In this document: one piece after another, positions 32,076 to 36,264 of the stretch | Layout: the number at the start of each line of letters is the position of its first letter | How positions within the stretch are numbered: the stretch's first letter is position 1 | From: Limnohabitans sp. Rim8 | GTDB taxonomy: Bacteria; Pseudomonadota; Gammaproteobacteria; Burkholderiales; Burkholderiaceae_C | DNA: 64,000 bases | NCBI RefSeq assembly: GCF_945869175.1 | Contig: NZ_CAMBNZ010000002.1 | Location: 1-64,000, forward strand | Direction of reading: 5' to 3' | Translations under genes and position numbers: made by a program | The notes under the pieces: generated by a model | Databases searched by the model: none | What the model was told of the DNA's origin: nothing | Seen by the model: the letters and a program-made list of their open reading frames with translations, nothing else

Positions 32076-34922
32076 TCAGTGGGCCTGCTCCCAATTGGGG
32101 CCAAAGCCCACTTCGGCCAACAGCGGCACCTTCAAATTGGCCACACCGGCCATGATGCGCGGCACCTCGGTGCGCACCCACTCGACTTCTGACTCAGGCA
32201 CTTCGAAGACCAGTTCATCGTGTACCTGCATGATGACCTTGGTGGTCTTGCCTTGCGCGTCCAGTGCTTTTTGCACCGCAACCATGCTCAGCTTGATCAG
32301 GTCGGCCGCTGTGCCCTGCATGGGCGCGTTGATGGCGGCCCGCTCGGCCCCGGCGCGGCGGGGGCCGTTGGGGCTGTTGATTTCGGGCAAGACCAAGCGC
32401 CTGCCAAATACGGTCTGCACATAGCCCAAGGCTTTGGCCTGCTCGCGGGTCGCATCCATGTAGTGTTTGACGCCCGCAAAACGTTCGAAGTAGCGGGTGA
32501 TGTAGTTCTTGGCGGCGGTGTTGTCAATGGCAAGCGCCTTGGCCAAACCGAAGGCGCTCATGCCGTAAATCAAGCCAAAATTGATGGTTTTGGCGTATCG
32601 GCGCTGTTCGCTGCTCACCGTGTCGGGCGTTGCGCCAAACACCTCGGCCGCGGTGGCTTTGTGCACATCCAGGCCTTCATGGAAGGCCTTGAGCAAGGCC
32701 GCATCGTCGCTCAGGTGTGCCATGATGCGCAGCTCGATCTGGCTGTAGTCGGCGCTCGCAATCACGCAGCCTGCAGGGGCCACAAAGGCCTCGCGCACCT
32801 TGCGCCCCTCGGCGGTGCGCACCGGGATGTTTTGCAGGTTGGGCTCGTTGCTCGACAAGCGGCCGGTGACGGCCACGGCCTGCGCGTAATGCGTGTGCAC
32901 ACGCCCCGTGCGCGGCAAGGCCAACTGGGCCAGCTTGTCGGTGTAGGTGCCCTTCAACTTACTCAAACTGCGGTGCTCCAGAATGCGGGCGGGCAACGGG
33001 TAGTCTTCGGCCAGTTTTTCCAGCACCTCTTCGTCGGTGCTGCGCGCACCGGTGGCGGTTTTTTTGACGACGGGCAAGCCCAGTTTGTCAAAAAAGATCT
33101 CGCCCAACTGTTTGGGGCTGGCCAGGTTGAAAGGCTGGCCAGCGATCTCGTAGGCCTCGGTTTCAAGCTGCACGATGCGCTCGCCCAGTGCCTGGCTTTG
33201 CGCGGCCAGTGTGGGGGCGTCGATCAACACACCGTTGCGCTCGATGTGGTACAGCGCCTCGCTGGTCGCGATTTCCAATTCGTACACGTACTTCAGCCCT
33301 GCATGCGCTTCGATCTGCGGCCACAGCGCCAGGTGCACGTCCAGGCACTGGTCCGAGTCTTCGCAAGAATAATGCGCCGCCTTGTCCACATCCACCTGCG
33401 CAAACGGGATCTGTTGCGCACCTTTGCCGCACAGGTCTTCATACGTCACACCCCGGCGACCCACATGCCGCTCGGCCAAGCTGGAGAGGCCATGCGGCTT
33501 GTGCACTTCGAGCACATAGCTTTCCAGCATGGTGTCGTGGGCATAGCCCTGCACCTCGATGCCGTGGTTGGCGAACACATGGCGGTCGTATTTGATGTTT
33601 TGACCCAATTTCAAGCGCGCGGGGTTTTCCAGCCAGGGCTTGAGCTTGGCCAGCACTTCCGTCAGCGGTAACTGCTCGGGTGCACCCGGGCCCTTGTGGG
33701 CCAGCGGAATGTAAGCCGCCTCACCGGGCGTGACGCTGAGCGAAATGCCCACGATTTCGGCACGCATGGCGTCCAGCGAAGTCGTTTCGGTATCGATGGC
33801 CGTGAGCGGCGCTTGCTCGATGCGGGCCAGCCACTGGTCAAATATCGCCCAGTCGAGCACCGTGTCGTATTTCAAGTCGCCTTGCACGGCGCTGGCGGCG
33901 CTGTTCAACTCGGGCAAGGCCTCTGGCGCTTCTTCTTGGGCCGAGCCAAACAAGTCGCCCATGCCCGTGTCTTTGGGCTTGGCGGTTTTGGCTTTAGGCG
34001 AAGGCGCGGGCACAGCACCACCCAGCGATTGCACCAAACCCTTGAAGCCGTAGGTCTGGTAAAAGTTCAACAACTTTTCTTTGTCTGGTTCGTGCAGGTG
34101 CAAACTGGCCAGCGACGGCAAACCCGGCACCCAGGCACTCAAATCGCAATCGGTTTTCATGGTGACAAGCGCCCGGCCCTTGGGCAACCAATCCACCGCT
34201 TGACGCAAGTTCTCGCCTGCCACACCCTTGATCTCTTGGGCATTCTCCATGAGCTTGTCGAGCGAGCCGTATTCCAGCAGCCACTTGGCGGCCGTCTTGG
34301 GCCCCACCTTGGCCACACCTGGCACGTTGTCCACCGTGTCGCCCACCAGCGTCTGGTAGTCGATCATGAGGGAGGGCGGCACGCCAAACTCTTCGGTCAC
34401 TCCCGCCACATCGCGCACCTTGCCGTTCATGGTGTCGATGATGGTGATGTGCGCATTCACCAGCTGACTCAAGTCCTTGTCGCCGCTGGACACCGTGACT
34501 TGGATGCCCTGCTGGGCGGCCACATGGGCCAACGTGGCGATCACGTCGTCGGCCTCCACGCCCGGCACATCCAGCACCGTCCAGCCCATCAGGCGCACCA
34601 GTTCGTGGATGGGCTCGATCTGGGTGCGCAAATCGTCGGGCATGGGGCTGCGGTTGGCCTTGTACGCTGGGTACATCTCATCGCGAAAAGTGGGGCCCTT
34701 GGCGTCGAACACGCACACGGCATAAACGGCTGGCACATCCTTGCGCAGCCGCTCCATCATGTTGATCATGCCGCGAATGGCCCCGGTAGCGGGGCTGTTG
34801 GGGTCGCCCGGCACAGCCCGCAGGTCCGGCATGGCATGGAAGGCGCGGTACAGGTAACTGGAGCCGTCGACCAGCAAGAGGCTGGCTTGGGGGGATGCAG
34901 ATTCAGGGGTGTTTTCGCTCAT
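32076..34922 (-). CDS. polA: DNA polymerase I
   Basis: 5'-3' exo, 3'-5' exo (AIDTETTSLDAMRAEIVGISL) and polymerase motifs (SADYSQIELRIMAHLS, QVHDELVFEVP); ATG at 34922. Confidence 0.97.
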   Translation of the reverse strand: MSENTPESASPQASLLLVDGSSYLYRAFHAMPDLRAVPGDPNSPATGAIRGMINMMERLRKDVPAVYAVCVFDAKGPTFRDEMYPAYKANRSPMPDDLRTQIEPIHELVRLMGWTVLDVPGVEADDVIATLAHVAAQQGIQVTVSSGDKDLSQLVNAHITIIDTMNGKVRDVAGVTEEFGVPPSLMIDYQTLVGDTVDNVPGVAKVGPKTAAKWLLEYGSLDKLMENAQEIKGVAGENLRQAVDWLPKGRALVTMKTDCDLSAWVPGLPSLASLHLHEPDKEKLLNFYQTYGFKGLVQSLGGAVPAPSPKAKTAKPKDTGMGDLFGSAQEEAPEALPELNSAASAVQGDLKYDTVLDWAIFDQWLARIEQAPLTAIDTETTSLDAMRAEIVGISLSVTPGEAAYIPLAHKGPGAPEQLPLTEVLAKLKPWLENPARLKLGQNIKYDRHVFANHGIEVQGYAHDTMLESYVLEVHKPHGLSSLAERHVGRRGVTYEDLCGKGAQQIPFAQVDVDKAAHYSCEDSDQCLDVHLALWPQIEAHAGLKYVYELEIATSEALYHIERNGVLIDAPTLAAQSQALGERIVQLETEAYEIAGQPFNLASPKQLGEIFFDKLGLPVVKKTATGARSTDEEVLEKLAEDYPLPARILEHRSLSKLKGTYTDKLAQLALPRTGRVHTHYAQAVAVTGRLSSNEPNLQNIPVRTAEGRKVREAFVAPAGCVIASADYSQIELRIMAHLSDDAALLKAFHEGLDVHKATAAEVFGATPDTVSSEQRRYAKTINFGLIYGMSAFGLAKALAIDNTAAKNYITRYFERFAGVKHYMDATREQAKALGYVQTVFGRRLVLPEINSPNGPRRAGAERAAINAPMQGTAADLIKLSMVAVQKALDAQGKTTKVIMQVHDELVFEVPESEVEWVRTEVPRIMAGVANLKVPLLAEVGFGPNWEQAH

Positions 34923-34982
34923 CCCCCAATTGTGTACCGGGATCAAGGCAAGACCGTCAATCCACCTCATGATTGGGTGGCC

Positions 34983-35218
34983 GGGCCTGCGCCTGGGCGA
35001 TATGGCCAAGCGAAGCGCTGCGACCACTGACGACCCTCCAGACAGTGTGTGGGGCCTGCGTTGAGGCGATGTGGCAAAGCGAAGCGCCTCTGAGCCTCGG
35101 CGGAGCCACCACACACCATCGCCCCGACAAATGCAAACCCGTTAAGGACTGACGGCACAGGGCCTCAGAGGCGCTTCGCTTTGCCACATCGGCCCCGCGC
35201 CGTCAGCCCTTAACGGGT
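34983..35218. repeat. Interleaved inverted/direct repeat array between polA and thrB
   Basis: Arm A 35067-35094 is the perfect reverse complement of A' 35164-35191 (28 bp); arm B 35137-35156 pairs with B' 35199-35218 with one mismatch; degenerate direct copy of A at about 34983-35019. Confidence 0.85.
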
Positions 35219-35301
35219 CATTGGGAGCTTTTCGCCCTCTACAATCGTTACTTTCCCACCTCAGCCAGCAACCTCCTGGCGCTTTGACGGTTTTCTCCCC
35301 C

Positions 35302-36264
35302 ATGGCGGTATTCACCGAAGTCACCGAAACCCAGGCCAACGACCTGATGCAAGCCCTGAACCTGGGGAACTTGACTGCTTTGCGCGGCATTGAAGGCGGC
35401 ATCGAAAACACCAACTACTTCGCCACGACCGAGCAAGGTGAGTACGTGCTCACCCTGTTCGAGCGCCTGACTCAAGAACAACTGCCGTTTTACCTGTACC
35501 TGATGAAACACTTGGCCAGCCAAGGCATCCCGGTGCCCAACCCGGCGGCCAACCGCGATGGCGACATCTTGCACACCGTGAGTGGCAAACCGGCCGCCGT
35601 GGTGAACAAACTCGCTGGCAAAAGCCAATTGCAACCCCAAGCCGCGCATTGTGCTGGCGTGGGCGACATGCTGGCCCGCATGCACCTGGCCGGAGCCGAC
35701 TACAACCGCAGCCAGCCCAATTTACGCGGCCTCAATTGGTGGAACGACACCGTGCCCTTGGTGCTGCCCTATTTGGATGGCGATCAAGCCGCGTTGCTGC
35801 GCAGCGAACTGGCGTTCCAAAACCACATCGCGGTCGGTGCCGCGTATGCCGCTTTGCCGCGTGGGCCGGTTCATGCCGACCTGTTCCGGGACAACGTGAT
35901 GTTCGACGGTGAGCAACTCACCGGCTTTTTTGACTTCTATTTCGCTGGTGTGGACACCTGGCTGTTTGATTTGGCCGTCTGCCTGAACGACTGGTGCATC
36001 GATTTGCCCACTGGCGTGCATGACAGCGGCCGCACCCAAGCCATGCTGAGCGCCTACAACCAAGTTCGCCCACTGACTGCCTGCGAGCGTGACCTGCTGC
36101 CTGCCCTTTTGCGGGCAGGGGCTTTGCGTTTTTGGATTTCACGCCTGTGGGACTACCATCTGCCCCGTGAGGCGTCCATGCTCAAACCCCACGACCCAAC
36201 TCACTTTGAACGCGTATTGCGCGGCCGGGTCCGGCACCCGCTCTGTGCCTCTGCCCTGATCTGA
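35302..36264 (+). CDS. thrB: Homoserine kinase (ThrB/aminoglycoside phosphotransferase type)
   Basis: MAVFTEVTETQANDLMQALNLGNLTALRGIEGGIENTNYFATT, GPVHADLFRDNVMFDGEQLTGFFDFYFAG. Confidence 0.95.
   Translation: MAVFTEVTETQANDLMQALNLGNLTALRGIEGGIENTNYFATTEQGEYVLTLFERLTQEQLPFYLYLMKHLASQGIPVPNPAANRDGDILHTVSGKPAAVVNKLAGKSQLQPQAAHCAGVGDMLARMHLAGADYNRSQPNLRGLNWWNDTVPLVLPYLDGDQAALLRSELAFQNHIAVGAAYAALPRGPVHADLFRDNVMFDGEQLTGFFDFYFAGVDTWLFDLAVCLNDWCIDLPTGVHDSGRTQAMLSAYNQVRPLTACERDLLPALLRAGALRFWISRLWDYHLPREASMLKPHDPTHFERVLRGRVRHPLCASALI

Follow-up and report, generated by a model that had tools for sequence, protein, structure and literature searches.

What are the inverted repeats that crowd the space between polA and a thrB-like homoserine kinase gene in Limnohabitans sp. 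Rim8, and which of their possible pairings matters? We analysed a window of 64,000 nucleotides (positions 1 to 64,000 of contig NZ_CAMBNZ010000002.1) in which a first-pass annotation had placed, between these divergent genes, a perfect 28-bp inverted pair, A (35067-35094) and A' (35164-35191); an inverted pair with one mismatch, B (35137-35156) and B' (35199-35218); and a degenerate direct copy of A. All of these are present as described, including the divergence of the genes—the direct copy (34983-35018) matches at 83% over 36 nt, and the A/A' inverted match stretches to 37 nt at 89%. The window holds three matches to motif A and two to motif B, with 0.04 and 0.01 expected by chance, respectively.

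The order A-B-A'-B' had been taken to mean interleaved, alternative hairpins. As an arrangement kept by selection this is rejected; B-A'-B' is one conserved hairpin, with B and B' flanking its tip, A', symmetrically. A belongs to a neighbouring hairpin of opposite orientation, of which it forms the tip and which has decayed arms of its own. An A:A' pairing is physically possible, and structure prediction for the + strand ranks it best; A matches A' because both are the constant tip of an element family, and no separate selection is needed to account for the match. We designate the elements at this locus X, Y, and Z; their coordinates are given in Table 1.

Table 1. Elements X, Y, and Z and the genes that flank them (window coordinates).
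Feature	Position	Strand	Evidence or remark
polA, flanking gene (context only)	32076..34922	-	Start 34922; Pfam DNA_pol_A, E 9e-158
Remnant of element X: 5' arm and first 20 tip bases (the "degenerate copy")	34970..35018	+	
Element Y, second hairpin, opposite orientation to Z	35039..35122	+	Covariance-model match, E 1.5e-12
Constant tip of Y (motif A)	35068..35093	+	
Element Z, complete hairpin: 29-bp stem and 26-nt tip (B, A', B')	35136..35219	-	Covariance-model match 1-84, E 4.6e-18
3' arm of Z (includes B)	35136..35164	-	Compensatory changes relative to other species at the same site
Constant tip of Z, GATGTGGCAAAGCGAAGCGCCTCTGA	35165..35190	-	Same as 153/168 tips
5' arm of Z (includes B')	35191..35219	-	29-bp pairing with 35136-35164
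thrB-like homoserine kinase, flanking gene (context only)	35302..36264	+	Start 35302; Pfam APH fold, E 6e-43

Folded as single-stranded DNA, Z reaches -34.7 kcal/mol (z -8.3); Y, whose stem is partly decayed in this genome, folds more weakly (z -1.9). X is intact in relatives (L096, L101, L144), the arrangement of half an X with complete Y and Z recurs in L035, L117, and L118, and L067 is an X/Y hybrid. A TTTTCG-YCTC-like stretch on both sides is suggestive of a target-site duplication, at this locus only. With modest support, the distribution of polA/thrB carriers on a ThrB tree is consistent with just two changes, a single gain and a single loss, where shuffled carriers need 11.1.

The genome-wide search proposed in the first-pass annotation gave opposite results for the two motifs. 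In the 2.77-Mb genome motif A has eight copies, the remnant in the window among them, distributed over five places; motif B has none outside this locus, because each locus has its own arms. Compared together with their flanks, the copies of A each prove to be the tip of a long hairpin whose arms differ from locus to locus. With up to three mismatches allowed, the tip occurs in 50 of 90 Limnohabitans genomes, at 1-15 copies each, and a reversed control pattern gave zero matches in the same search. A chance or one-off rearrangement, the fallback considered earlier, does not fit these copies in the genome and its relatives. Exact tips in named genomes come overwhelmingly from Limnohabitans and from Comamonadaceae/Burkholderiales MAGs; one MAG titled Akkermansia muciniphila (CALQKH02; L067, L092, L098) has Limnohabitans-type loci and is probably mislabelled.

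Sorted by orthologous site, the collected copies make up eleven groups, of which nine are large, and 168 well-flanked copies form 28 arm clusters. In 153 of these 168 the tips are identical, across species, while the arms diverge. Species lacking the tip have clean empty sites at six loci, with neither arm present, and likewise at polA/thrB; a pre-existing terminator or palindrome later invaded by the tip is thereby rejected. Most Limnohabitans copies sit between transcription units—at polA/thrB and at a thiolase locus, between divergent genes—and inverted pairs occur at polA/thrB, at several other loci, and in other genera. Rearranged copies include truncated forms and an arm hybrid (L110), and the tips in L097 (1341) and L036 (1502) have the opposite orientation, with respect to the flanking genes, to those at the same site in other species.

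The element is about 84 nt long: a stem of 29 bp, its sequence specific to the locus, is closed by a tip of 26 nt that is nearly invariant. The tip comprises a tandem G.A/A.G, a T.T, a covarying pair, a second T.T, GGC:GCC, an AAA bulge, and a C(GNA)G triloop. The tandem G.A/A.G, which adjoins a closing pair of pyrimidine-purine type, and the T.T mismatches at 3-24 and 5-22 are invariant or nearly so; the triloop is present in 65 of the 73 elements with a recognised tip, with A, C, or T as N. Among 37 non-redundant elements, two-sided changes are seen at 31 of 35 pairs, namely all 29 stem pairs and two tip pairs, and 88.3% of pair cells hold standard pairs, compared with 58.3% after shuffling and 38-45% after sliding. 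The stem ends sharply, with pairing falling to background at pair 30. The covarying tip pairs are 4-23 (G-C/T-A) and 6-21 (G-C/C-G), and the variants behind them come from other genera (g16, g44, g52, g122). Part of this compensation-like pattern could stem from template-switch correction of palindromes. We also considered a kink-turn, as GAUG/CUGA resembles box C/D; the idea was dropped since the three-nucleotide bulge is missing.

On the tip-sense strand G.T mismatches outnumber A.C by 273 to 57 cells, or by 130 to 49 distinct events, and of the 17 arm clusters that could be decided 16 have more G.T; as events from one cluster are not entirely independent, these counts serve as a guide rather than a formal test. 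The excess is seen in C>T and in A>G steps alike, is missing in some clusters (groups 1- and 5), and stands beside full two-sided replacements, the commonest class of all (114). The bias follows the tip and not the genes: it holds for the two partners at polA/thrB, which face opposite ways, as well as in group 3, whose element is antisense to the genes on either side of it (genes only 10-15 bp apart in two non-carrier species). For group 3, selection on a sense mRNA hairpin is rejected on this ground, and in general a bias independent of gene orientation favours one folded DNA strand over mRNA. The conserved feature is the fold of one strand, the strand with the GNA triloop.

Relatives extend well beyond the genus. 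Scanned with a first covariance model (R1), G004, which is without the first tip type, proved to have a second one, GATTTGGCGAGCGNAGCGAGTATGA; one second-type copy also lies in the genome studied here (G000:C76:9452-9535), and at a fabI/arginine decarboxylase locus (L123, L129, L142, L176, and others) an element of each type lies about 250 bp from the other in opposite orientation. A second model (R2) found relatives, often as inverted pairs, in at least 59 of 401 genomes and at least 29 of 141 sampled genera of the family; these counts are lower bounds, as scoring was limited to about eleven candidates in each genome. Other tips (GATTTCAAAAAGCGNAGCGTATGA; ...CCGAAGG...; ...CCGCGCAGCGG...) retain the triloop, with compensated closing pairs. 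Among more distant matches, L296 (G506, another family; 1501-1615, - strand) has a relative with an additional inner hairpin in its tip, and L298 (G775; 1143-1584) has three model matches within 450 bp, two with nearly identical arms—a possible local amplification of what are likely distant relatives. A search of plasmids, phages, and viral contigs gave zero element matches.

Some elements enclose genes, and some in other genera lie inside an open reading frame. Inverted pairs at L337 (1501-2509) and L332 (1501-2831) enclose a CcdB/Phd toxin-antitoxin pair, that at L332 together with a GNAT-like gene. Elements with other tips lie inside an open MmeI-type restriction-modification gene that reads through them, at L295 (160-241, - strand; 1501-1582, + strand) and L322 (124-205, - strand; 1501-1582, + strand). 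An autonomous mobile unit between the widely spaced pairs was sought and rejected; the pairs at L332/L337 contain CcdB/Phd, and those at L295/L322 sit within the MmeI-type gene rather than around a transposase. Elements inside open reading frames do not suggest a regulatory site in those genera.

Several known systems share part of this design. Rickettsia palindromic elements (RPE) can lie in-frame inside genes, as do the elements in the MmeI-type genes; they differ in sequence and lineage, and we know of no constant-tip, variable-stem rule for them. Repetitive extragenic palindromes are a second comparison: like REP, BIME, and REPIN sequences, the elements are short intergenic palindromes with internal mismatches, often arranged as inverted dimers, and REP sequences are recognised as one folded strand (PMC8266576, PMC3733652). 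In contrast to the conserved 5-13 bp stem of REP (PMC3733652), the stem here is 29 bp long and different at each locus, and where REP combine a constant stem with a GTAG/CGTC tag, this family combines a variable stem with a constant tip at few copies per genome. GTAG and CGTC are absent from the 5' foot in all 28 arm-cluster representatives and occur in at most three in the 3' window; the foot columns carry at most about 0.5 bit. Unlike REP with their TnpA_REP (RAYT), the elements have no adjoining RAYT. The RAYT link that the first-pass annotation proposed to look for is absent across the genus: 85 of 90 genomes have a Y1 transposase, whether or not they carry the element, and of the 32 loci with a Y1_Tnp gene that we read, none had an element beside it. 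At one of these genes (L032; G000:C21:4301-4633), a single-copy Y1 transposase is flanked by different palindromes of its own, TTAATTGGGGTCAGATCCCAATTAA-like. Integron attC sites are likewise recognised as a folded single strand of variable sequence and conserved structure (PMC8266576); however, attC conserves its foot and varies its tip, whereas here the information is in the tip and not the foot, and we saw no cassette array with the elements. The N4 vRNAP promoter hairpins share the C-closed G..A triloop, and they extrude with only one strand stable (PMC4496689), but their stems are short and lie at promoters, whereas the elements are chromosomal repeats with 29-bp stems. The family works like a strand-specific structured DNA repeat and is a member of none of the families tested; it did not turn up in the literature searched and is apparently undescribed.

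How, then, might the hairpins act? Our leading reading, which we hold with about even confidence, is that they are DNA elements of a REP-like kind, whose folded hairpin is read strand-specifically by way of the GNA-triloop tip. A GNA tip on the very strand that has the G.T bias points to a hairpin of DNA, extruded or single-stranded, that is recognised by this tip. Mini-hairpins of the d(GCGNAGC) type are unusually stable in DNA, and where the DNA is supercoiled or transiently single-stranded such a very stable GNA mini-hairpin may nucleate extrusion of the tip-sense strand, which the long stem would then keep out. N4 promoter hairpins offer a precedent, as they extrude at physiological supercoiling and need the C:G closing pair and the loop G and A to do so (PMC4496689). 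The constant tip would be read by a putative trans-acting factor, in a manner similar to the recognition of folded DNA by TnpA_REP, IntI, or N4 vRNAP. The elements would have been inserted at the sites examined, as the empty sites in relatives suggest, often as inverted pairs, and would now be mostly inherited vertically and seldom copied. A broader version, which we put forward tentatively and consider rather unlikely, is a Burkholderiaceae-wide class of DNA signals, neither REP nor attC, in which a cellular protein with specificity for structure reads the fixed, GNA-capped tip on a single extruded strand, and the 29-bp stem is free to vary provided that it pairs.

Much of the same evidence could be claimed for RNA. 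A structured small RNA—a tip-sense transcript from its own or a distant promoter, whose hairpin tip binds a protein as a decoy or regulator—would show such a fold and covariation at 31 of 35 pairs, a dedicated antisense or small RNA would be expected to carry the same strand bias, and internal loops of RNA often contain tandem G.A together with U.U. We nevertheless regard this as unlikely, as we found no sigma-70-like promoter in the polA/thrB region, in groups 4 and 7 the tip-sense strand starts only about 12 nt, or slightly more, past the end of an intrinsic terminator, and the group 3 element is antisense to both its neighbours. No Rfam family fits either: against release 15 the window gave only sub-threshold microRNA-hairpin matches and the relatives none, with no family above its gathering score.

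The elements might instead have no present function, as a neutral selfish repeat spread on rare occasions by a putative transposase and kept symmetrical by template-switch correction only. The rearranged copies (the L067 hybrid, truncated forms, L110, the flipped tips of L097 and L036) and the elements within MmeI-type reading frames are in keeping with this, yet 153 of 168 identical tips beside diverging arms are not, and palindrome correction predicts neither the covarying pairs in variant tips nor a strand-specific G.T bias; we judge this account improbable. Least credible, and in our view very improbable, is a role as bidirectional transcription terminators or as hairpins that stabilise mRNA. 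The length and stability of the hairpins, and the position of several in 3' regions, would suit it, but a terminator has no need of a fixed tip, elements lie between divergent genes at polA/thrB and the thiolase locus, and groups 4, 7, and 8 have separate intrinsic terminators adjoining the elements. The absence of a T-tract and of any terminator call at 34880-35340 of the window bears out the first-pass view that these repeats are not terminators.

The usual hallmark of a palindromic repeat in bacteria is a conserved stem or tag. This family inverts the rule—the tip is fixed, the stem is free but compensated, one strand is preferred, and insertions are marked by empty orthologues. Ordinary repeat finders miss such a family because its copies have only about 26 bases in common. 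Whether palindromic repeats act as DNA or as RNA is a long-standing question, and the many natural compensatory replicates of this family make both that question and the identity of the reader directly testable. The stem sequence differs at each site and yet stays paired; it seems to be the folded strand itself that matters.
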